Origin: Gibbula magus
Lineage: Eukaryota > Mollusca > Gastropoda > Trochida > Trochidae
Length of the DNA: 64,000 nt
Assembly: GCA_936450465.1 (NCBI GenBank)
Contig: OW388289.1
Span: 65,842,420-65,906,419, forward strand
Reading direction: 5' to 3'
The notes under the pieces were generated by a model. That model did not search any database and was not told where the DNA came from. It saw only the letters and a list, made by a program, of their open reading frames with translations. The translations under genes were made by a program, and so were the position numbers. Shown piece after piece: positions 76 through 59,324 of the stretch (its first letter is position 1; each line of letters begins with the position of its first letter).

Positions 76-545
76 TAGTCCGGCAGCCAAACCCCGATTT
101 TCACCCTCGGTGGGAAAGTGCGTCCATAGAAAATGTTTCTACAGAAATTGAACCTTGTGGGTATATACTATAGGAAACTGAATGATGACACTTTGTCATC
201 ATTGAGCATTTTGAATAATTAATGTTTTAATTAGATAGGGTACACTCCTGATTTCATTTATCCAGACAAATCATGTAATTATATTAAAGTGTTATCAAAA
301 TTGAAATAAAATTAAGGCAGTTATATACCAAGCGTTTTCTATTAGTATTACGAACATAAGTACAAAACAATGTTGAAAAAAAACGAAAGGCCAAAATGTT
401 GATAATATGTCTGGATAAACGAGGTTTTCTGAGCAAATATGGTTTTCTTACAATAAAATTGGATTTAATGGTGTAATCATTTACTTTTGATTATAATTAC
501 GATTATTGAATCATAATCAAAAGAAATGGTGATAAAGTTTCAGTT
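76..545 (+). repeat. Left arm of the foldback element
   Basis: This arm pairs with 2655-3113. Shared landmarks include the block around GAAACTGAATGATGACACTT at about 175-195 and the block around AATGTTTTAATTAGATAGGG at about 221-240. No coding potential is seen. Confidence 0.7.
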
Positions 546-1289
546 AGTGTTTATATTTGTATACTATTCTGAAATAGGCTTTCGTGTAACAATGTCACTA
601 ATTGTGGTGAGAAAATGGTGATTTTTGACAATTTAATGGTATTTTTAAAAAATCACAATTTACCATTTTTATTTTGTATTGAAATGAATTTGTTTATTCA
701 CCAAGCAACACATTTATTACAAAGAGTTTATTTCCAAAAGACAAAAACAGGAAATAGTCAATTTCAAAGTTTAGACCCAAGATTCGAACACGAAGCGGGC
801 ACTGAAATTGGGCAATTTGAAGGTTGAGTTATTGGTTGACAAGAGTAGTCTCCATAAAAGAAAAAGCTAAACGTATAGATTCTAACTGCAATGACCTGAA
901 AAGTGACATTAAAAAGTGTGGGCGTGCACATATTCAAACCCTTATTCAGATAACACTAATGGTGTTGCAACACATTTTTGAAACAGGAACATCAAACACC
1001 TTGTTATTTCATAGGTCATTTGAATCATGTTTACATCAAAACAACACAGCAAAGACAAAGATATGAGAGACAACGAAAACAACAAACTAAAACAGTTGCT
1101 CGGCTTCTCCCAAGAAATTGCGCAGTTGTACGGACAATAATGTGTTACATTTTAAAGAACACTGTACTGTATTTCTGTCGAATCAACGGAGCATTGAGTG
1201 ATTTACATTGCTGCAGATGCAAGATATGACGTTGATTTCAAGTATAAATTAATTTTCAAAGGGTATCAATTTTGCCGCACGGACTTGTC

Positions 1290-3212: not shown

Positions 3213-3681
3213 CAGTGTCCAATCTAGGACGCGCGATCGCAAGATTCACGCTAAAAAATATCAAATCGCGCCTCATAAAAATATCATAGCGCGAACTGTC
3301 GCGCATAGTTATTTTGTACATTAAATGCTACACATATTCCTACCTTTTCCTTTTTAATCATATATTATTACAGCAAAAGAGAGAGGTTTATTTACAAGGA
3401 AAACATTTGTTTTTAAAACGTAGTTATCGATCTATCCAAGAATTGTAAGTGAATGAGAGTCTTATTTTGAGTTCATGTTGCAGGATTAAAGAAACCGAAA
3501 ACACACATTTCATATTTATTGTTTATATTTACAGTGATAAGGTTAAGACAGTACAGATATGAAAATGTTAACAACTTTGAAGAAATCAATATCCCCCCTT
3601 ATGTTTTCAAATCCCCTATCTTTTCTACAAGAAGGGGGGGGACAAATCCCCCCTTGCTTTCCAGTTCTAGATTGGACACTG
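3213..3681. mobile_element. Non-autonomous TIR element (MITE), 469 bp
   Basis: The left end starts CAGTGTCCAATCTAGGAC and the right end is the complement with one mismatch (…GTTCTAGATTGGACACTG). The 5 bases GTCAT occur immediately outside both ends (3208-3212 and 3682-3686) and are a likely target-site duplication. No transposase is inside. The CAGTG terminus is seen in some hAT elements, but those usually make 8-bp duplications, so the superfamily is open. It lies just upstream of the first visible CIB exon. Confidence 0.65.
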
Positions 3682-3822
3682 GTCATTATGTTTGTTTCAT
3701 GAAAATCTTATTTCATATTTGTGATGCTTTTTTGCTAATTGCAATGTTAGGAATGAATGAAATTGATATCAGACTATCATAATGATTTAAATTCAATTCA
3801 AGATTTTTTTGTATTTTTACAG

Positions 3823-3857
3823 GATTGTACCTTCTTCACCAGAAAAGAAATTTTAAG
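3823..3857 (+). CDS. CIB: CIB exon a (35 bp)
   Basis: Acceptor TTTTTACAG, donor GTAAAT. It encodes [11 protein letters not shown] plus the first two bases of an Arg codon (phase 2). The equivalent region in CIB proteins follows a Tyr-Gln pair, which should end the missing preceding exon. Confidence 0.9.
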
Positions 3858-6800
3858 GTAAATATTATAACAATGTTAATTTATTGAAAAGTTGATGTAT
3901 TCATATGGATATTCTGAATGAATAAAGCTAACAGTTTGCAGCCAAAAAAGAAACATCAAAATTCTTATACTGAAAAAAATATATATTGGATGACTCTTAG
4001 TTTCTAGTGACATATTTAGAAAATAAACATACTGTGTTTGAAAATCAGCAGCATATAACGGATAGCTTTAAATTTAATTTAAAGTCCAACGCGTAGTGTG
4101 AGACTTTAAATCGATAATTTAGAGCTATAATATAAATGTCTTAAATTTTAAGACCACCTACATTTGGGTGTTACACAAACACCAGTCCAATTTGGAGACA
4201 CTTATTTTCAAGAAAAAAGTAAACAGGTTACTGGTGCTGTTGTACTCGTGACAAAGATGAATGAACACTGGAACATTGCTGGTGCTGTAGTCCTGGTACT
4301 GGTCAATTGTGTTGATTTCCCTCTTCAGAGTATTCAAGAGATTCCAGGAACTGGCGCCGGATCTCATTCCATTTGATATGACCGGTAATGAAACTCGGAG
4401 ACTGAAGATTCCGGTGGATATGATTGAAAACATGCCTGAATTAAAGGTATGTTGGAAGTACACATTGATTTGAATGGTTGTTTTTATATTGGATAGGACA
4501 GTAGCCAAGTTGCCATTTCTTTATTATTGTTAAAACCAAAGAATTTCAGTGACTCAAACCTTGTGAGCTTAATATACAGGGGGCGGGATAGTGCAGTGGT
4601 TAGAGTGTTCAGTTTTGGATCAAGAGGTCCAGGGTTCGAATCCCACCAGGGGCACGGCAACTTTGTCTGCAGTAGAGAACTGTTCTACACGCAGTAAGGT
4701 TTGGGTACAATGCTACACTGAATTTCAGTGCACTACCACCCATGGTTTGCTAGTTCCAGCCGTTGCTCGCAGGTTTCACCGCAATGCATAGCCACATGGC
4801 GTTGCGGATTTTCTCCCTGCACTAATACTAGCAGCCGTGATATAAGTGAAATACTCTTGAAAGCGGCGTTAAACCCTAACTCACTCACTCACTTAATTTA
4901 CAATTAAAACTTTACAGGTCCAAAAATATTCCAGGATATCAGCTGGTTCTTTATCCTGTAGCCAATTCCAGTTTCCCAATTTCCATTGTTGACAGGTTGT
5001 ATTTGTGTAGATTGGCCACTATGAATGGTTTGGAAATAGTTGGTTCAGCAGCAAACTGTTCCAAGATCATTTAATTTGACAGTAACATGTTGTTCTCGAA
5101 AGTTTTGGTATAGTTTATATACTAGTTATGATCCCTGGTTGTATTTTCAAGATTTAAAATCAACCATAGCTATATATCACTTTAATAGTTTTAACTAGAT
5201 TAACAGGGTTTAAAAAATAGCATAGCTTTAGTTTAGTAATACAAAAGTATATTTTTCACGCTAATACCCCCATTTCACTGAGCTACAAGATCGTTGCGGA
5301 CTGAAAGTAGTCAGTAAGTCGTCAGTGAATTGTCAGTGAGGCATATCGGAGTCCCCTTAACTTGGCTTGAAGCGTGTATGAGTCTCCAAGAGTCTTTAAG
5401 AGTCGGGTGGTCAAATTCAGTCGGGCGATGCTCGTACTTTTGGACCGGAAATTCCATCAAGTTATTTTCAGTCGTGATTTAGTCGTACATAGCTCGTATC
5501 TGATTTTTATGGGGTCGTATTAAGTTGTCTTGTCAGTCGTATTTACTCGTATCCAGTCGTATTGAGTCGTGGTGGTCGTGTGTGAGTTGGGAATAAATCT
5601 TCCCCTAAAATACTTGCCGACTCACTTCCAACTACATTGTAATGCCAACTCACGTACAACTATCCAATACTCAACGACCAGTGACAACCCGTTCCAGACT
5701 AAACACGACAATAAGGCCAAATAACTTGTATGTGATTCGTATGTGACTCGTAAGTGGGTTGTATGTGGGTAGTGATGAGTCGCCATGGTCATGAACTAGT
5801 CGTTATTAGTCATGAGTGGGTCGGGAATGAGTCCTTGTCAGAGTCGTCGTGGCGGATTAGTGTCTGGAAAAAGTTGGCAGTTAGTCATGAATGGGTCAGG
5901 GGTTCCTCCTCACTATGTCGTAAGTAAGTCTTAAGTAACTCGTAGAAATATCAAATTTGAAAATTTTACAAATGTTCCCCGACTCATGTCGACAAAGTCG
6001 TAGCCAAAAAGTTGGGAAGAGTCGGGAATAGTCGTGAAGAATTTTGGAAATCGTAGCTCAGTGAAATGGGGGTATTAGCAACTACCTAGGACTATGTTTT
6101 TCAATATTTATGATGGTTACAAGCAGGGATGCAGATTCAAATTTTTGCCAGTCGGACATTTCATCTTTTACCCAAAAAGACGAACCCGGAAGTAAATTTT
6201 TTTTTATGAATAAAGTATGAGAAAGTATTACTATTTGTTGGTTCTTCATTCATTGCATACTATTAATCATAACACGAAAGCAATTAACGTTAACTATTAA
6301 TTTATCATTAACATGCATAAAATAGTTCATAATTTAAAAACAATGTTTACCAACTACGATTTACTGACAGTGCTAGTTTGAGCGAGTTTACACAAGCTAA
6401 CTTACAAGTATCACTTTTCATATATGTCAAATTATTTGAGAAATAAACTAAATATTCTAAATACTATATCAAGATTTATTCAAGGCAACTGTAATTTGTT
6501 TTATGGCAAGTGAAAATAATGATGTTTTTTTGTTTAGAATTTGGCATGCATATAGACAAATTGTATACAGGTGCTTTTAGATTTTCTTCAAATGTTTTCT
6601 GAATATTCAATGTTTGTAACTTGTAACCATGACAACACCAACAGGAGAACCCATTCAAGCGACGACTGTGTGAGGTGTTCTCCGAAGATGGGTCGGGCAG
6701 CATGTCCTTTGATGATTTCCTCGACATGTTCTCAATCTTTAGTGAGGCAGCGCCAAGAGATATCAAGACTGTCTATGCTTTCAGAATTTATGGTGAGTTC

Positions 6801-9800
6801 AAGGGAAAACTCTTGATGCTGTAGTTCATTTTCTATATGGAGTTGTCAAATAGCATGCAGAGGTTTGGATGTACTGCCAATGAGTTTCATAGAACTCAGT
6901 CATTAAGTTTGGTCTATCTTACACCACTTGTTGAGACAAATGTGAATCTGGTAAACAAAGTGAACTAAGATTTACCGATTTTTAGCTTATCACAGCCTAC
7001 ATTTTCAAAGTCAGAGCCCTCGTCCATGAAAAACTATAATGGCTTTTTGAGGTTGATTATTGTACTATTAATATACTATTGAAATTATCTCTTTGAAGTG
7101 AAAGACATCAAACATTTGACTTTTGTCAGTCTCCGGACATCATAATGTCAGTAGGAGATATCAAGTGAAATAGAGCAGGCATTAGATGTATATTTTCACT
7201 ATTTGTAGACTTTGACGGAGACATCATATTTTCACTATTTGTAGACATTGACGGAGACATAATATTTTCACTATTTTTAGACTTTGACGATGCCATCATA
7301 TTTTGATTTTTGTAGACTTTGACAGTGACGTCATATTTTCACTATTTGTAGACTTTGACGGAGACATCATATTGTCACTATTTGTAGACTTTGACGGAGA
7401 CATCATATTTTCACTATTTCTCGATTTTGACGAAGACATTATATTTTCACTATTTCTAGACTTTGATGGAGACATTATATTTTCATTATTGTAGACTTTG
7501 ACGGAGACATTATATTTTCACTATTGTAGACTTTGACGGAGACATTATATTTTCACTATTGTAGACTTTGACGGAGACGTCATATTTTCACTATTTGTAG
7601 ACTTTGACGGAGACATCATATTGTCACTATTTGTAGACTTTGACGGAGACATCATATTTTCACTATTTCTCGATTTTGACGAAGACATTATATTTTCACT
7701 ATTTCTAGACTTTGATGGAGACATTATATTTTCATTATTGTAGACTTTGACGGAGACATTATATTTTCACTATTGTAGACTTTGACGGAGACATTATATT
7801 TTCACTATTGTAGACTTTGACGGAGACATTATATTTTCACTATTGTAGACCTTGACGGAGACATTATATTTTCACTATTGTAGACTTTGACGGAGACATT
7901 ATATTTTCACTATTGTAGACTTTGACGGAGACATTATATTTTCACTATTGTAGACTTTGACGGAGACATTATATTTTCACTATTGTAGACTTTGACGGAG
8001 ACATTATATTTTCACTATTGTAGACTTTGACGGAGACATTATATTTTCACTATTGTAGACTTTGACGGAGACATTATATTTTCACTATTGTAGACTTTGA
8101 CGGAGACAACTACCTGAACAAGGAGGACCTGGAGAAGACTCTCTTCTGTCTGACCGGGGAGGAGCTCACCAAGGAGGAGGTCACCTTCGTAGTGGACAAG
8201 GTTCGGACAACACCCTCCTCTCTGTCTGTCTCTCTGTCTGTCTCTCTGTCCCTCTCTCTGTCTGTCTGTCTGCATATATTGCATTGCCATTGTGTAGACA
8301 GCTTACATAGTATCAGGATTGCATGTACCCATGAGTATTGTTGTATGCTTTTTATCCCACCGGTATGTAATACCGTGGGATATAGTCGTCACCCTGGGTG
8401 TCCGTCCGTAATCATTTCGTTTCCGGAGCAGAACTCGAAAACCATTTATCATATCTTTCTGAAACTTCACATATGTATTACACAATTACTGGAGTGGTGC
8501 CTTTTGATATTTTCAGATTTTGGAAAACAATTATTTTTTTTCGTTTCCATGGAAACGTGTTGAAATTGAACTCTGTTCAGGGATATGTTAGTTTCCGGAG
8601 CAGAACTCAAAAACCACTCATCATATCTTTCTGAAACTTTGCACATGCTTTACCTATTTACTGGAGTGGTGCCTTTTGATATTTTCAGGTTTTTGAAAAA
8701 AGATGTAAATTTTTTTCCATCGAAACGTGTCGAAAATGCAGGGTTAGGTTTGTTGCCACAGCAAAACTCAAAAACCGTTCATGATATTTTTCTGAAACTT
8801 CCCATGTGTATGACCCACCTACTGAAGTGGTGTTTTTGATATTTTGAGATTTCTGAAAATTTAATTTGATTCTGTTTCCATAGAAACGTGTTGAATTTGG
8901 ATTTTGTTCAGAAACAGGTTCATTTCCGGAGCACAGATCCAAAACTCTTCATCATATCTTCCTGAAACTTTGCATGTGTATTACCCAGTAACTGAAATGG
9001 TGCCTTTTGATATTTTCTGATATGTGAAATGGTTTTTTTTACAATTTTCATAGAAATGAGTTTAATTTGGACTTTGTTCAGAAATAGGTCAGGAGCAGAA
9101 CTCCAAAACCCTTTATCATATCTGAACTCAGCATGTGTATTACCCACTAACTGAAGTAGTAGATGTACAATTATCTGTCAAAGATGTGTTTTACAAATTG
9201 TGTGGGACCGGTGGGATATGTCATCTTCTCATGACTCTTGTTATTCACCAGTGTATAGTATAATCACTTCGCAAACACACATAATAAACTGATATACTTT
9301 GAAATCCGTTTTTGTTTGATTATTTAAAACAGCATCAGATGTATAAGCCAACAGTAGCAGCTCGACGAGCCCCTTCTTTGTTTGTTCTACCTTACAATAG
9401 TATCAACTGTTTGAGAGACAATGGTTGTGAAGTTGGTGTGATGAAGAGATTCTAGGACAAAACCCCAAATGGACAAAAGCCCCCTAAGGGAAAAAATAAA
9501 CGCCGGAACCGATAGACTCTCTCTCTCTCTCTCATACTTTTTTAGATCCGATAGAAATAGGGTATAAGTCATGTTGCCTTAGCCTAACTTCTATTGAAAA
9601 TTGGGATTATCCTGTTTTTGTTGAATATAATTATCATTAGGAACCTAGAGCAAAGTAACAATCAGTTGTTGACTATTAATATTAACGTTGCATGTTTATC
9701 GTGAGCGAAATAACCTGAGTTATTGTGAAGGATTTTATGAATGCTTCTTATGTCTGCCTCAATGATTTTCTTACACCAGGTACTAGAAGAGACGGATCTC

Positions 9801-11018
9801 GATGACGATGGCTCCCTGTCCTATATAGAGTTTGAGCATGTCATATCTCGAGCTCCAGACTTCCTCAAGTGAGTACATGTACAACAATTTCATACTTGTA
9901 GCGTTTGCTTTTGAGTCAACAATTTTTCAATGCTCTAATGTCACATTCTCTTCCCACAGAGGTTACTCCCTTCAGATTTCAGATCCTCTGTTGTTTTACG
10001 CTTGTAATCGGGGGCAGAAAGGGTGTGTCCTGATTGGTTGCAATTGAATCTAGTTGTGCAATCAGCTATGCCATTGTAAAACATTTGCCGATGTCATGTC
10101 ATAATAATAAAATAAATGTAAGGCCAACGTTTTCTTGTTTCATGTGTTTTCCTCGAAAGATGCTATTTGATTTTGTGAAAACTTTTGATCATTAACATGC
10201 TTATAAATAAAGAAGACCAAATCAGAGACAAATACCAATACAGTTCATTTGCGTTATTTACATCAGACATATTTGAATGACATATGCTAATGAGCAAGAC
10301 TCTTCAGAGTAAAATGCCTAGATCTTTGAAGTTACTCGGTCGTAATGGCCACTGAAAGATGAGTTTTCATTGGTTAAGAAGAAGGGATATGGTATGAGTT
10401 TTCACTTTCCACCGCTAGGGGACTTTGGTTCCGCTCTCGATTTCAAGCGAAAAACAACAGAGGGTAGGATCGGAAATCTGAAGGGAGTAACCTCTGTGGG
10501 AAGTAGTGTGTGAAATATTGTCACCGATTTATTGAATTTATGAAATACAGAAAATTGATTACAAATTAAACTGTGTTTGTGATTAGAAATATACGCCCTT
10601 TAGACAGTAAACGAATGCAACATTGTTATATTTTGGAGCATACTGTCTGTAATAAGGTCAAACAACCGTTAGTAAGGCCATGTTTACATTCAGTATCTAA
10701 AGTGGCACATCTCTCAAAGCTGAATCCATTGGAAGTCATTTTGACAGCAAACAAATGTAATATTGTTATATAATTGGTTCGGTCTTTAGCGTTTCTACAA
10801 ATAGAATGTCTCGAAATTACTATATGGACAAGCTGTACATACAGTCAGTGCTGGAGAGGGGTGTCTGACTCTGAGGGTGTTGGTTTGAATCCTGTGAGGG
10901 ACTGGACCTGTAAAATCAACAATGTACTTGGCGTGTGACATAATGCAACCATCTTGTGGTACCAATTATAAAGATCTTGAATTGTTTATATTTCAGCACA
11001 TTCCACATCAGGCTTTAG
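3823..11018 (+). CDS. CIB: Calcium- and integrin-binding protein (CIB family), N-terminus not found
   Basis: A small EF-hand protein related to calcineurin B. Family members bind Ca2+, partner with integrin tails, kinases or TMC channels, and are often N-myristoylated. The six exons are 3823-3857, 4329-4446, 6645-6792, 8094-8200, 9780-9868 and 10997-11018. Their junction phases all match and give about 172 residues ending in the CIB terminus FHIRL; vertebrate CIBs have about 187-191. EF-3 has the loop [12 protein letters not shown] and EF-4 the loop [12 protein letters not shown], both with acidic residues at positions 1, 3, 5 and 12. The start [11 protein letters not shown] and the terminus favour CIB2/CIB3, while LTGEE and VISRAPDF resemble CIB1, so the paralogue is not settled. 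About 17 N-terminal residues, including any MG myristoylation signal, were not found in 1-3822 and may lie upstream of the window. Confidence 0.93.
4329..4446 (+). CDS. CIB: CIB exon b (118 bp)
   Basis: Acceptor CCCTCTTCAG, donor GTATGT. The first base completes Arg, and 39 codons follow, from [16 protein letters not shown] to MIENMPELK. This is the helical N-lobe with the degenerate EF-1. It ends in phase 0 and joins exon c to give the family motif PELKENPF. Confidence 0.93.
4579..4891 (+). mobile_element. tRNA-derived SINE in CIB intron
   Basis: A box-A-like GTGCAGTGGTTAGAG and a box B GGGTTCGAATCCC form a tRNA-like head (4583-4655). A unique body follows, ending GGCGTTAAACCCTAAC plus TCAC repeats. 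The flanks CTTAATATACA (4568-4578) and CTTAATTTACA (4892-4902) are an 11-bp target-site duplication with one mismatch. A degraded relative is at 21735-21985. Confidence 0.88.
5260..6079. mobile_element. Foldback/MITE with perfect 27-bp inverted ends and GTCGT-rich core
   Basis: The left terminus 5260-5286 (starts GCTAATACCCCCATTTCAC) is the exact complement of 6053-6079. The interior is dense in variants of AGTCGT, GTCGTA and ACTCGT and has no open frame. A palindromic TA at each end is compatible with a TA target. It lies in the CIB intron between exons b and c. Confidence 0.8.
6645..6792 (+). CDS. CIB: CIB exon c (148 bp)
   Basis: Acceptor ACACCAACAG, donor GTGAGT. It begins [16 protein letters not shown] and runs through [20 protein letters not shown] to YAFRIY plus one base of Asp. 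This is the EF-2 region, in which CIBs have lost canonical Ca2+ ligands. Ends in phase 1. Confidence 0.95.
7200..8093 (+). repeat. Minisatellite made of the CIB exon-d splice acceptor (about 25 copies)
   Basis: The unit is 35 bp in the proximal 10 copies (7744-8093, exact period 35) and about 36 bp in older copies. Each unit holds TATTTTCACTATTGTAG (pyrimidine tract and acceptor) followed by ACTTTGACGGAGAC, the first 14 bases of exon d. A block of about 249 bp near 7330-7578 is repeated once as a higher-order unit. The 36-bp copies stay open ([12 protein letters not shown] repeats), but the 35-bp copies bring the acceptor's TAG into frame. Confidence 0.95.
8094..8200 (+). CDS. CIB: CIB exon d (107 bp, EF-3)
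   Basis: The acceptor is TTTTCACTATTGTAG, and the first two bases complete the first Asp of the EF-3 loop ([12 protein letters not shown]). The exon ends VVDK at the donor GTTCGG, which is weak beyond GT. It is boxed in by repeats: directly upstream are about 25 copies of its own acceptor plus its first 14 coding bases, and directly downstream is a CTGTCT microsatellite. Only this last copy continues with AACTACCTG and leaves an open frame. Confidence 0.93.
8214..8272 (+). repeat. CTGTCT-type microsatellite beside CIB exon d
   Basis: Imperfect CTCTCTGTCTGTCTCTCTGT repeats begin within 15 bp of the exon-d donor. No other feature is seen before 8354. Confidence 0.85.
8354..9217. mobile_element. 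Short-TIR element with five tandem units of about 168 bp
   Basis: The ends are ATCCCACCGGT (8354-8364) and its complement ACCGGTGGGAT (9207-9217). Between them, five diverged units start near 8419, 8589, 8755, 8925 and 9090. Each carries a form of GAGCAGAACTCAAAAACC and then ATCATATCTTTCTGAAACTT. There is no transposase. It lies in the CIB intron between exons d and e. Confidence 0.7.
9780..9868 (+). CDS. CIB: CIB exon e (89 bp, EF-4)
   Basis: Acceptor TTCTTACACCAG, donor GTGAGT. It encodes [20 protein letters not shown] and then VISRAPDFL plus AA. The EF-4 loop is canonical, with Gly at position 6 and Glu at position 12. Phase 2 continues into AAC (Asn) in exon f. Confidence 0.95.
9950..10503. 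mobile_element. MITE with TIRs of about 65 bp in CIB intron
   Basis: CTTCCCACAGAGGTTACTCC opens the left end, and the complement closes the right end at 10503. Similarity continues for about 65 bp to the region of CTCTGTTGTTTT and CGCTTG. The interior of about 420 bp has no open frame. I see no convincing target-site duplication. Confidence 0.78.
10997..11018 (+). CDS. CIB: CIB exon f (terminal, 22 bp coding)
   Basis: Acceptor TTTATATTTCAG. The first base completes Asn, then TFHIRL and TAG. This tail matches the conserved C-terminal extension of CIB2/CIB3-type proteins. The 3' UTR follows; I could not assign a poly(A) signal. Confidence 0.9.
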
Positions 11019-14560: not shown

Positions 14561-15060
14561 TGTATATCAAAACATATGTACCATTACATTGTCTTTCCAC
14601 CTCACCATATTGTCAGGTTTATCACTATAAAAAATGTCATGATGTATCTCTGTAATGCCAATGCACATCATAAGAATATCATGCATATGGTACATCCTGT
14701 ATATTATTTTTCATCACTGAAACACAATGGTATATATACCTATAATGTCATGGTACACCACTATGTCATGGTACATCACTGATACATCATTAATGTCATT
14801 GTACATCACTATGTCATGGTACACCACTATGTCATGGTACACAACTATGTCATGGTACACCACTATCTCATGGTACATCACTAATGTCATGGTACACAAC
14901 TATGTCATGGTACACAACTATGTCATGGTACATCACTGATACATCACTAATGTCATTGTACATCACTACTGTCATGGTACATCACTACTGTCATTGTACA
15001 CCACTATGTCATGGTACACCACTATGTCATGGTACATCACTAATGTCATGGTACACAACT

Positions 15061-17680
15061 ATGTCATGGTACACCTCTATGTCATGGTACATCACTGATA
15101 CATCACTAATGTCATTGTACATCACTACTGTCATGGTACATCACTTCTGTCATTGTACATCACTATGTCATGGTTCATCACTATGTCATGGTACATCACT
15201 ACATCATGGTACATCACTATGTCATGGTACATCACTAATGTCAATGTACATCACTACGTCATGGTACATCACTAATGTCATGGTACATCACTACGTCATG
15301 GTACATCACTACATAATGGTACATCACTATGTCATGGTACATCACTAATGTCAATGTACATCACTACGTCATGGTACATCACTAATGTCATGGTACATCA
15401 CTACGTCATGGTACATCACTACATCATGGTACATCACTACATCATGGTACATCACTACATCATGGTACATCACTATGTCATGATACACCTCTATGTCATG
15501 GTACATCACTACATCATGGTGCATCACTAATGTCATGGAACATCACTTTGTCAAGGTACATCACTATGTCAAGGTACACCTCTATGTCATGGTACCCCTC
15601 TATGTCATGGTAAATCACTGTAATGTCATTGTACACCTCTATGTCATGGTTCATCACTAATTTCATGGTACATCACTACATCATGGTACATCACTATGTC
15701 ATGGTACATCACTTTGTCATGGTACATCACTAATGTCATGGTACATCACTACGTCATGGTACACAACTATGTGATATTTCATCACTACATCATGGTACAT
15801 CACTATGTCATGGTACATCACTTTGTCATGGTACATCACTACATCATGGTACATCACTAATGTCATGGTACATCACTAATGTCATGGTACATCACTATGT
15901 CATGATACACCTCTATGTCATGGTACCTCACTTTGTCAAGGTACATCACTATGTCAAGGTACATAACTATGTCAAGGTACATCACTATGTCAAGGTACAC
16001 CTCTATGTCACGGTACCCCTCTATGTCATGGTAAATCACTGTAATGTCATTGTACACCTCTATGTCATGGTTCATCACTAATTTCATGGTACATCACTAC
16101 ATCATGGTACATCACTATGTCATGGTACATCACTTTGTCATGGTACATCACTAATGTCATGGTACATCACTACGTCATGGTACACAACTATGTGATATTT
16201 CATCACTACATCATGGTACATCACTATGTCATGGTACATCACTTTGTCATGGTACATCACTAATGTCATGGTACATCACTACTGTCATGGAACATCACTA
16301 ATGTCATGGTACATCACTATGTCATGATACACCTCTATGTCATGGTACCTCTCTTTGTCAAGGTACATCACTATGTCAAGGTACATCACTATGTCAAGGT
16401 ACATCACTATGTCAAGGTACACCTCTATGTCATGGTACCCCTCTATGTCATGGTAAATCACTGTAATGTCATTGTACACCTCTATGTCATGGTTCATCAC
16501 TAATTTCACGGTACATCACTACATCATGGTACATCACTATGTCATGGTACATCACTTTGTCATGGTACATCACTAATGTCATGGTACATCACTACGTCAT
16601 GGTACACAACTATGTGATGGTTCATCACTACATCATGGTACATCACTATGTCATGGTACATAACTTTGTCATGGTACATCACTAATGTCATGGTACATCA
16701 CTATGTCATGGTACATCACTAATGTCATGGTACATCACTATGTCATGGTACATCACTACATCATGGTAAATCACTATGTCATGGTACATCACTATGTCAT
16801 GGTACACCTCTATGTCATGGTACATCACTTTGTCATGGTACATCACTAATGTCATGGTACATCACTATGTGATGGTTCATCACTACATCATGGTACATCA
16901 CTATGTCATGGTACATCACTAATGTCATGGTACATCACTATGTCATGGTACATCACTACATCATGGTACATCACTATGTCAAGGTACATCACTATGTCAA
17001 GGTACACCTCTATGTCATGGTACCCCTCTATGTCATGGTAAATCACTGTAATGTCATTGTACACCTCTATGTCATGGTTCATCACTAATTTCATGGTACA
17101 TCACTACATCATGGTACATCACTATGTCATGGTACATCACTTTGTCATGGTACATCACTAATGTCATGGTACATCACTACGTCATGGTACACAACTATGT
17201 GTTGGTTCATCACTACATCATGGTACATCACTACATCATGGTACATCACTATGTCATGGTACATCACTATGTCATGGTACATCACTATGTCATGGTACAT
17301 CACTTTGTCATGGTACATCACTAATGTCATGGTACATCACTTTGTCATGGTACATCACTATGTCATGGTACATCACTAATGTCATGGTACATCACTACAT
17401 CATGGTGCATCACTAATGTCATGGTACCTCACTTTGTCAAGGTACATCACTATGTCAAGGTACACCTCTATGTCATGGTACCCCTCTATGTCATGGTAAA
17501 TCACTGTAATGTCATTGTACACCTCTTTGTCAGGGTTCATCACTAATTTCATGGTACATCACTACGTCATGGTACATCACTATGTCATGGTACACCTCTA
17601 TGTCAAGGTACATCACTAATTTCATGGTACACCACTATGTCAAGGTACATCACTATGTCAAGGTACATCACTATGTCATG
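15061..17680. repeat. Higher-order block, copy 1 (2.6 kb)
   Basis: This block matches 18743-21362 at a constant offset of 3682 bp. It starts where ACACCTCTATGTC follows an ACACAACT variant and ends where TCATGG becomes TCATGATAC. I saw no difference in the stretches compared by eye. Confidence 0.85.
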
Positions 17681-18512
17681 GTACACCTCTATGTCATGGT
17701 ACATCACTGATACATCACTAATGTCATTGTACATCACTACTGTCATGGTACATCACTATGTCAAGGTACACCTCTATGTCATGGTACCCCTCTATGTCAT
17801 GGTAAATCACTGTAATGTCATTGTACACCTCTATGTCATGGTTCATCACTAATTTCATGGTACATCACTACATCATGGTACATCACTATGTCATGGTACA
17901 TCACTTTGTCATGGTACATCACTAATGTCATGGTACATCACTACGTCATGGTACACAACTATGTGTTGTCTCATCACTACATCATGGTACATCACTACAT
18001 CATGGTACATCACTATGTCATGGTACATCACTATGTCATGGTACATCACTATGTCATGGTACATCACTTTGTCATGGTACATCACTAATGTCATGGTACA
18101 TCACTTTGTCATGGTACATCACTATGTCATGGTACATCACTAATGTCATGGTACATCACTACATCATGGTGCATCACTAATGTCATGGTACCTCACTTTG
18201 TCAAGGTACATCACTATGTCAAGGTACACCTCTATGTCATGGTACCCCTCTATGTCATGGTAAATCACTGTAATGTCATTGTACACCTCTTTGTCAGGGT
18301 TCATCACTAATTTCATGGTACATCACTACGTCATGGTACATCACTATGTCATGGTACACCTCTATGTCAAGGTACATCACTAATTTCATGGTACACCACT
18401 ATGTCAAGGTACATCACTATGTCAAGGTACATCACTATGTCATGGTACACCTCTATGTCATGGTACATCACTGATACATCACTAATGTCATTGTACATCA
18501 CTACTGTCATGG
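16985..18512. repeat. Tandem duplication of a 764-bp block inside the satellite
   Basis: About 16985-17748 and 17749-18512 are near-identical. One visible difference is GTGTTGGTTCATC near 17210 against GTGTTGTCTCATC near 17974. A further 306-bp duplication follows (about 18210-18515 and 18516-18821). Confidence 0.8.
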
Positions 18513-18742
18513 TACATCACTATGTCAAGGTACACCTCTATGTCATGGTACCCCTCTATGTCATGGTAAATCACTGTAATGTCATTGTACACCTCTTTGT
18601 CAGGGTTCATCACTAATTTCATGGTACATCACTACGTCATGGTACATCACTATGTCATGGTACACCTCTATGTCAAGGTACATCACTAATTTCATGGTAC
18701 ACCACTATGTCAAGGTACATCACTATGTCAAGGTACATCACT

Positions 18743-21362
18743 ATGTCATGGTACACCTCTATGTCATGGTACATCACTGATACATCACTAATGTCATTGT
18801 ACATCACTACTGTCATGGTACATCACTTCTGTCATTGTACATCACTATGTCATGGTTCATCACTATGTCATGGTACATCACTACATCATGGTACATCACT
18901 ATGTCATGGTACATCACTAATGTCAATGTACATCACTACGTCATGGTACATCACTAATGTCATGGTACATCACTACGTCATGGTACATCACTACATAATG
19001 GTACATCACTATGTCATGGTACATCACTAATGTCAATGTACATCACTACGTCATGGTACATCACTAATGTCATGGTACATCACTACGTCATGGTACATCA
19101 CTACATCATGGTACATCACTACATCATGGTACATCACTACATCATGGTACATCACTATGTCATGATACACCTCTATGTCATGGTACATCACTACATCATG
19201 GTGCATCACTAATGTCATGGAACATCACTTTGTCAAGGTACATCACTATGTCAAGGTACACCTCTATGTCATGGTACCCCTCTATGTCATGGTAAATCAC
19301 TGTAATGTCATTGTACACCTCTATGTCATGGTTCATCACTAATTTCATGGTACATCACTACATCATGGTACATCACTATGTCATGGTACATCACTTTGTC
19401 ATGGTACATCACTAATGTCATGGTACATCACTACGTCATGGTACACAACTATGTGATATTTCATCACTACATCATGGTACATCACTATGTCATGGTACAT
19501 CACTTTGTCATGGTACATCACTACATCATGGTACATCACTAATGTCATGGTACATCACTAATGTCATGGTACATCACTATGTCATGATACACCTCTATGT
19601 CATGGTACCTCACTTTGTCAAGGTACATCACTATGTCAAGGTACATAACTATGTCAAGGTACATCACTATGTCAAGGTACACCTCTATGTCACGGTACCC
19701 CTCTATGTCATGGTAAATCACTGTAATGTCATTGTACACCTCTATGTCATGGTTCATCACTAATTTCATGGTACATCACTACATCATGGTACATCACTAT
19801 GTCATGGTACATCACTTTGTCATGGTACATCACTAATGTCATGGTACATCACTACGTCATGGTACACAACTATGTGATATTTCATCACTACATCATGGTA
19901 CATCACTATGTCATGGTACATCACTTTGTCATGGTACATCACTAATGTCATGGTACATCACTACTGTCATGGAACATCACTAATGTCATGGTACATCACT
20001 ATGTCATGATACACCTCTATGTCATGGTACCTCTCTTTGTCAAGGTACATCACTATGTCAAGGTACATCACTATGTCAAGGTACATCACTATGTCAAGGT
20101 ACACCTCTATGTCATGGTACCCCTCTATGTCATGGTAAATCACTGTAATGTCATTGTACACCTCTATGTCATGGTTCATCACTAATTTCACGGTACATCA
20201 CTACATCATGGTACATCACTATGTCATGGTACATCACTTTGTCATGGTACATCACTAATGTCATGGTACATCACTACGTCATGGTACACAACTATGTGAT
20301 GGTTCATCACTACATCATGGTACATCACTATGTCATGGTACATAACTTTGTCATGGTACATCACTAATGTCATGGTACATCACTATGTCATGGTACATCA
20401 CTAATGTCATGGTACATCACTATGTCATGGTACATCACTACATCATGGTAAATCACTATGTCATGGTACATCACTATGTCATGGTACACCTCTATGTCAT
20501 GGTACATCACTTTGTCATGGTACATCACTAATGTCATGGTACATCACTATGTGATGGTTCATCACTACATCATGGTACATCACTATGTCATGGTACATCA
20601 CTAATGTCATGGTACATCACTATGTCATGGTACATCACTACATCATGGTACATCACTATGTCAAGGTACATCACTATGTCAAGGTACACCTCTATGTCAT
20701 GGTACCCCTCTATGTCATGGTAAATCACTGTAATGTCATTGTACACCTCTATGTCATGGTTCATCACTAATTTCATGGTACATCACTACATCATGGTACA
20801 TCACTATGTCATGGTACATCACTTTGTCATGGTACATCACTAATGTCATGGTACATCACTACGTCATGGTACACAACTATGTGTTGGTTCATCACTACAT
20901 CATGGTACATCACTACATCATGGTACATCACTATGTCATGGTACATCACTATGTCATGGTACATCACTATGTCATGGTACATCACTTTGTCATGGTACAT
21001 CACTAATGTCATGGTACATCACTTTGTCATGGTACATCACTATGTCATGGTACATCACTAATGTCATGGTACATCACTACATCATGGTGCATCACTAATG
21101 TCATGGTACCTCACTTTGTCAAGGTACATCACTATGTCAAGGTACACCTCTATGTCATGGTACCCCTCTATGTCATGGTAAATCACTGTAATGTCATTGT
21201 ACACCTCTTTGTCAGGGTTCATCACTAATTTCATGGTACATCACTACGTCATGGTACATCACTATGTCATGGTACACCTCTATGTCAAGGTACATCACTA
21301 ATTTCATGGTACACCACTATGTCAAGGTACATCACTATGTCAAGGTACATCACTATGTCATG
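18743..21362. repeat. Higher-order block, copy 2 (2.6 kb)
   Basis: Partner of 15061-17680. Rare variants are shared at the same positions, such as CTACATAATGG at about 15310 and 18992, and GTGATATTTCATC at 15771 and 19453. This indicates recent duplication or an assembly effect. Confidence 0.85.
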
Positions 21363-21734
21363 ATACACCTCTATGTCATGGTACCTCACTTTGTCAAGGT
21401 ACATCACTATGTCAAGGTACACCTCTATGTCATGGTACCCCTCTATGTCATGGTAAATCACTGTAATGTCATTGTACACTTCTATGTCATGGTTCATCAC
21501 TAATTTCATGGTACATCACTATGTCAAGGTACATCACTATGTCATGGTACATCACTACGTCATGGTACATCACTATGTCATGGTACCTCACTTTGTCATG
21601 ATACACCTCTATGTCATGGTACCTCACTTTGTCATGGTACTTCACTGTCATGGTAATAATCCCTTCATATGTCATGATACATCACCACGATGTCATTGTA
21701 CATCACCATGATATAATTGTACACCACTGAAAGG

Positions 21735-24295: not shown

Positions 24296-25436
24296 TAAAT
24301 ATAACGATTAACAGGTACCGTTACAAGTGAGATTATGAAGGTACCGTTACAAGTGACGATTATGAAGGTACCGTTACAAGTGACGATTTTCAATGTACCG
24401 TTACAAGTGACGATTATGAAGGTACCGTCACGGGTGACGATTTCCAACGTACCGTTACATGTGACGATTATGAAGGTACCGTTACATGTGACGATTATGA
24501 AGGTACCGTTACAAGTGACGATTATGAAAGTACCGTTACAAGTGACAATTACCAAGGGACCGTTACAAGTGACGATTACCAAGGTACCGTTACGGTTGAC
24601 GATTTCCAAAGTACCGTTACGAGTGACGATTATGAAGGTACCGTCACGGGTGACGATTACCAAGGTACCGTTACGAGTGACGATTTCCAACATGCCGTTA
24701 CAAGTGACGATTATGAAGGTACCGTTACAAGTGACGATTATGAAGGTACCGTTACGGGTGACGATTTCCAACGTACCGTTATAAGTGACGACTTTGAAGG
24801 TACCGTTACAAGTGACGATTATGAAAGTACCGTTACAAGTGACAATTACCAAGGGACCGTTACAAGTGACGATTACCAAGGTACCGTTACGAGTGACGAT
24901 TTCCAACATGCCGTTACAAGTGACGATTATGAAGGTACCGTTACAAGTGACGATTATGAAGGTACCGTTACAAGTGACGATTATGAAAGTACCGTTACAA
25001 GTGACAATTACCAAGGGACCGTTACAAGTGACGATTACCAAGGTACCGTTACGGTTGACGATTTCCAAAGTACCGTTACGAGTGACGATTATGAAGGTAC
25101 CGTCACGGGTGACGATTACCAAGGTACCGTTACGAGTGACGATTTCCAACATGCCGTTACAAGTGACGATTATGAAGGTACCGTTACAAGTGACGATTAT
25201 GAAGGTACCGTTACGGTTGACGATTTCCAACGTACCGTTACAAGTGACGACTTTGAAGGTACCGTTACAAGTGACGATTATGAAAGTACCGTTACAAGTG
25301 ACAATTACCAAGGGACCGTTACAAGTGACGATTTCCAACGTACCGTTACGGGTGACGATTTCCAACGTACCGTTACAAGTCATGATTATACAGGTACCGT
25401 TACAAGTGATGATTTTCAAGGTACCGTTACAACTAC
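24296..25436. repeat. 27-bp minisatellite, about 42 copies, with a dyad in each unit
   Basis: The unit is a 27-mer built on GGTACCGTTACAAGTGACGA. It has three main endings (TTATGAA, TTACCAA, TTTCCAA) that alternate in recurring blocks. CGTTAC-AA-GTGACG is a near dyad, and the variant CGTCAC-GG-GTGACG has perfectly complementary arms. Both strands are open for long stretches (374 codons on minus at 24295-25419), as expected for a stop-free unit whose length is a multiple of three. Confidence 0.93.

Positions 25437-26542: not shown

Positions 26543-59324
<32,782 letters not shown>

Follow-up and report, generated by a model that had tools for sequence, protein, structure and literature searches.

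The stretch of DNA analyzed here, called the window, comprises 64,000 nucleotides of contig OW388289.1 from the gastropod Gibbula magus. It spans 65842420-65906419 of C1, the handle used here for one of the 140 contigs of a 1.47-Gb genome assembly. The array examined below occupies the end of an intron in a gene whose product is an EF-hand protein of the CIB (calcium and integrin-binding) family. This array consists of 26 tandem copies of a 35- or 36-bp unit, the last of which is the native intron-exon junction.

The CIB product matches the Pfam EF-hand_7 model, and its best relatives of solved structure are CALMyrin/CIB2/CIB3. Among 120 of 202 matches listed, a CIB3-like protein of Haliotis rubra ranks first among proteins and reaches 95% across the searched part. 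With upstream flanking sequence added, the gene can be laid out as seven exons with a coding sequence of 570 nucleotides, corresponding to 189 codons with no internal stops. The predicted protein is identical to H. rubra CIB at 169 of 189 residues. Because CIB reads as an intact gene with this degree of similarity, a functional mRNA is presumably made. The fourth and fifth exons, termed exons c and d, flank the intron that carries the array. Exon c is followed directly by the donor GTGAGT at position 6793, and exon d is followed by GTTCGG, a poor-looking donor by the usual consensus.

Tandem Repeats Finder (TRF) reports a single array of period 35 with 26.0 copies and 92% matches. When aligned by acceptor, the copies occupy 26 positions from 7209 to 8094, so that 25 copies have been added to the native junction. 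A first-pass annotation had proposed that the gene's own 3' splice site was amplified here, and this proposal is upheld. Each unit consists of approximately 20 bases of intron end followed by exon-d bases (ACTTTGACGGAGACA). The annotation had counted 14 copied coding bases; the copying of the exon start is correct, but 15 bases are shared and base 16 differs. Similarly, the TAG acceptor that was assigned to every unit is present in most rather than all. The AG is kept in 24 of 26 copies, and CG is found in copies 7 (7424) and 14 (7673). Unit length is 36 bp in 11 copies and 35 bp in 15, including all of copies 16-26, which are nearest to exon d.

A 25-mer taken from the unit, with up to three mismatches allowed, gave 14 matches, all within the array, and none in each of 100 shuffles, which rules against a chance pattern. 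The peptide DFDGD, encoded by the exon-d stretch that is present in the unit, is common to six of eight aligned mollusc relatives; thus, exon d is the source and the array is the copy. The array was also considered as coding sequence. This possibility was rejected, as the translated array, when searched against proteins, matched nothing at E <= 1 among 1580 candidates.

Table 1. Features of the CIB gene and its array, and two further arrays at exon edges elsewhere in the genome. Positions refer to the window unless a contig is named.
Feature	Location	Strand	Basis or detail
CIB exon 1	412 to 362 bases upstream of the window start		exon layout
CIB exon 2	3823..3857	+	tblastn with H. rubra protein, exon layout
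CIB exon 3	4329..4446	+	tblastn with H. rubra protein, exon layout
CIB exon c (exon 4 of 7)	6645..6792	+	tblastn with H. rubra protein, reading frame, junctions
Array of 26 tandem 35/36-bp units, counting the native junction	7189..8108	+	TRF, unit alignment
Decoy acceptors: AG in 23 of the 25 copies upstream of the native one, CG in 2 (7424, 7673)	7206..8061	+	unit alignment, frames
Higher-order duplication inside array (252 bp, offset 249)	7327..7827	+	7327-7578 again exactly at 7576-7827
Homogenized exon-side block, identical 35-bp copies, 15 bases into exon d	7852..8108	+	187-base exact self-match, offset 70, from 7852
Native acceptor TAG	8091..8093	+	inferred from homology and the unbroken frame
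CIB exon d (exon 5 of 7), 107 nt	8094..8200	+	tblastn with H. rubra protein, frame; first 15 bases common with array
CIB exon e (exon 6 of 7)	9780..9868	+	tblastn with H. rubra protein, frame
Final CIB coding exon, encoding NTFHIRL and stop	10997..11018	+	exon layout
L046, acceptor mirage, calmodulin-like gene	C1:58379790-58381360, local 376-680		108-bp unit, 2.8 copies
L057, donor mirage, EF-hand gene	C17:19898993-19900172, local 666-783		18-bp unit, 6.6 copies

The CG sequences of copies 7 and 14 look like one event that was then copied by later duplication, because the array contains the exact 252-bp self-match listed in Table 1. Divergence from the native copy drops toward exon d (Spearman -0.76 over 26 copies, which are not independent of one another), and copies 20-26 do not differ anywhere in the 35-bp unit. 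Together, the identical copies and the exact duplication indicate concerted evolution within the cluster. This pattern is that of ordinary minisatellite growth, with the most recent growth beside exon d. An exact repeat within the array and a long block without differences are what might be seen if the assembler had created the copy number or the 252-bp duplication. However, the 5' copies diverge in a graded fashion, like arrays are common in this genome, and contigs of up to 117 Mb in 140 pieces suggest a long-read assembly. An artifact is therefore highly improbable.

A search of the whole genome with the unit, using a DNA search method that passes over very common words, returned 12 matches, of which nine are in the array itself and three are on C15 at 76-78% identity (best E 5.5e-7). 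At the C15 locus (L009), two arrays with a 31-bp unit (local 3560-4446 and 4857-5119) share the 15-base block TTATATTTTCACTAT with the intron half of the CIB unit. It might be supposed that a 31-bp repeat family scattered through the genome supplied the intron half, which then became joined to the CIB junction. We consider such an outside origin very unlikely. Approximately 32 chance occurrences of the shared 15-mer are expected at the size and make-up of this genome, and tandem repetition inflates the E-value. Moreover, the 15 exon bases of the unit are CIB's own, and four patterns taken from the 31-bp unit were each absent from a 200-kb genome sample. The sharing with C15 is perhaps due to chance.

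Each 35-bp unit carries a match to the branch-point consensus YTNAY (TTGAC) 28 nucleotides before the AG, as the annotation had noted, as well as a second match (TTCAC) 9 nucleotides before it. An additional AG is located inside the exon-like part of the unit. When exon c was joined in turn to all upstream copies (23 with AG and two with CG), an in-frame stop resulted every time. The expectation that early acceptors lead to a premature stop therefore holds, but not the restriction of this effect to 35-bp copies, in which the stop is supplied by the TAG of the next copy. Because the stops lie 107 to 894 nucleotides before the junction of exons d and e, any use of decoys would be at least as likely to cause mRNA decay as to yield truncated protein.

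These properties would suit poison splicing, regulated or noisy, in which a share of transcripts passes through the decoys and CIB output depends on how long the array is. Such stops follow from every one of the 23 AG acceptors upstream. In addition, copies 20-26 cannot be separated by local sequence, which agrees with the earlier view that the spliceosome faces many near-identical acceptors. There is also a human precedent in IFI6 (6-16), where donors are carried by a minisatellite, downstream units are reportedly used in transcripts, and three mRNA species result (PMC4526556).

The substitution pattern speaks weakly against selected decoys. When copies 12-17 were left out as an exact duplicate of copies 5-10, 20 derived states were counted over 36 unit columns. 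Classed by column, there are 10 in intron-like columns (20 columns), nine in exon-like columns (15), one in the AG columns (two), and one in the length column. The AG columns thus show no sign of extra constraint and are no more constant than others, although the events are few and the power is low. Likewise, amphioxus arrays of comparable anatomy are reported to produce no aberrant mRNA (PMC3087553, PMC3902484). Equal use of all 24 AG sites would leave about 1/24 of messages correct; because the CIB protein is conserved, the native site is presumably used far more than the decoys. Poison splicing is accordingly an unlikely account of the array.

We favor the interpretation that the array is a mirage minisatellite, most likely passive, and that the native site is chosen by exon definition, and we assign this interpretation a probability of roughly 0.75. 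A tandem array born at a splice junction would carry an intron end and an exon start in each unit. Growth from the native exon-d acceptor would have occurred by slippage or unequal exchange, and the array would be removed as intron. The native acceptor would be picked by exon definition and not by local sequence, as it is the sole copy joined to a real exon body and a downstream donor. Splicing to decoys, if it occurs, is probably a small leak whose products stop prematurely. We counted 12 purine-type enhancer-like pentamers in the 92 nucleotides of the exon-d body beyond the 15 copied bases, versus 24 in the 920 nucleotides of the array.

Several points weigh against this interpretation. The array also bears exon-like signals, in that 22 of its 24 pentamers are GGAGA within units. 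The poor-looking exon-d donor weakens the exon-definition argument, and transcription reaches the upstream acceptors before the native one. In human IFI6, moreover, repeat-borne donors are reportedly used in real transcripts. A mechanism based on folding of the array RNA was rejected, because none of 20 shuffles folds less well than the array (z +5.8). Because the array RNA is less structured than the shuffles, the decoys are probably accessible.

Minisatellite-like duplications of intron-exon boundaries are described for amphioxus globin genes (PMC3087553). Amphioxus mirages that have been named are in Adh3, troponin C, the globins BflGb6 and BflGb9, and PGBD5, with troponin C and PGBD5 reported as further examples (PMC3902484). 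Data on Adh3 together with globin reverse transcription-polymerase chain reaction experiments suggest no interference with splicing (PMC3087553). As in amphioxus, the CIB units run in tandem across an intron-exon boundary, and many but not all of them carry a splice signal. The CIB array includes an exon part, and the host junction and reading frame are intact. Mirages in amphioxus occur at both 5' and 3' boundaries with homogenized copies, and the G. magus genome likewise holds both acceptor and donor cases.

The scale and the host differ. The mollusc CIB array has 26 copies of 35-36 bp, whereas BflGb6 of amphioxus, a cephalochordate, has units of 150-160 bp that number 6 and 3; the units of Adh3 span 10-72 bp (PMC3087553). 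Cluster boundaries in BflGb6 are excluded from homogenization (PMC3087553). In contrast, copy 26 on the exon side of the CIB array is identical to its neighbors, and divergence is at the 5' end; hence boundary exclusion of the BflGb6 type is absent. This exclusion was seen in BflGb6 and is perhaps not a defining trait of mirages. By anatomy, the CIB array is a member of the mirage kind.

Human cases resemble the CIB array in part. IFI6 shares an exon-edge tandem repeat that multiplies a splice site, but the sites are donors and those of CIB are acceptors. The CBS variant 844_845ins68 duplicates the intron 7/exon 8 junction, with the distal copy strongly favored (PMC2630376, where the text says "donor"), a case that counts in favor of the passive interpretation. 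It differs from CIB in having only two copies, of 68 bp, and in being a population variant. In human segmental duplications, minisatellite units averaging ~30 bp are located at exon-intron boundaries and can alter splicing (PMC2812944). These differ from the CIB array in that novel introns or alternative transcripts are reported, copy numbers are short, and the genes are recent paralogs (PMC2812944).

Further arrays of this kind were sought at other EF-hand exons. An EF-hand_7 search of the genome produced at least 144 matches (150 of 446 candidates scored). From these, 30 loci outside the gene cluster at C3:89.6-90.8 Mb were taken, mostly in list order, some of them from neighboring or the same genes. 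With TRF (score 40), 16 of the 30 loci have an array of period 7 or more, and in six cases it is no more than 120 bp away from the matched exon part. Four of these (L043, L049, L056, and L058) have short, weak arrays. Close reading covered the remaining two, L046 and L057, and both are mirages, one at an acceptor and the other at a donor.

At L046, where the exon aligns to calmodulin residues 60-139, the true exon begins at 630, and upstream of it the unit repeats the acceptor together with 50 bases of the exon, at 414 and again at 522. The decoy at 522 is in frame and would add 36 residues, and that at 414 runs into a stop. A separate 43-bp array of 15.7 copies begins 25 bp past the matched exon part of this locus. 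At L057, the exon ends in ...AAGATCACATTTAATG followed by GTAAGA, and the unit copies the last 16 exon bases plus GT. Four extra GTAAGA sequences are present at 700, 718, 736, and 772, and the frame is open to 785. Splice-junction mirages therefore recur in this genome, at 2 of the 30 loci and at both kinds of junction. As other exon edges show like arrays, the impression of a singular element conveyed by the first-pass annotation is weakened.

Tandem arrays are abundant in this genome. By a hand-merged list (period of 7 or more, 100 bp or more; a 108-bp array of period 10 at 56997 was left out), they cover 21.4% of the window. Half of this is due to a single array of 6.9 kb at 14745-21655, with an 18-bp unit in 379.6 copies by TRF. 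In 20 arbitrarily placed 10-kb stretches, under the same period and length thresholds, arrays cover 20.4% (40,855 bases). However, 20,000 of these bases come from two stretches wholly within long-period satellite, and coverage is 11.6% without these two. When the arrays of the window were placed at random in 20,000 trials, an array ended within 20 bp of one of nine CIB junction positions in 12% and covered a CIB junction in 54%. The placement of an array at a junction was thus rejected as surprising in itself.

Other elements of the window were also recorded. A 27-bp array of 41.9 copies at 24304-25432 has long open frames on both strands, which may mean nothing, the unit length being a multiple of three. 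A 63-bp array of 3.7 copies at 29336-29573 starts within ~10 bp of the end of a candidate minus-strand exon. Long open frames on the minus strand at 27998-29041 and 43041-47585 resemble, judging by eye, a Tc1/mariner-type transposase and reverse-transcriptase elements. A second mirage was considered on the minus strand at 30814, against a 96-bp array at 30424-30712, and was rejected. The best local match is 10 bp and was equaled in 31 of 300 shuffles; with the exon end alone, it was equaled in 10 of 500. A homolog search with the gene at 30814 found no match; its product may be an RGS7BP-like protein.

No mollusc mirage appeared among the papers listed in literature searches, although one may be in print. 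Mirages as a kind are already known from amphioxus; what seems new is the mollusc host and their recurrence in one genome. A bolder proposal is that minisatellites copying splice junctions are born at a few percent of exons in this lineage, with CIB array length acting as a heritable dial on output through poison splicing, the 35-bp unit length ensuring a stop in every decoy product. We regard this combination as quite unlikely. With its exceptionally extended series of identical acceptors, the CIB array is most likely passive.

The CIB acceptors nevertheless provide a natural test of 3' splice site choice, as they are identical over 35 bp and only the last is right. Given this local identity, either exon-side signals must decide or CIB leaks. 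Molluscs could serve to measure the birth rate of tandem repeats at splice junctions and the use of decoys. They could also show whether arrays of this sort give rise to new introns or exons, an idea put forward for the amphioxus globins (PMC3087553).
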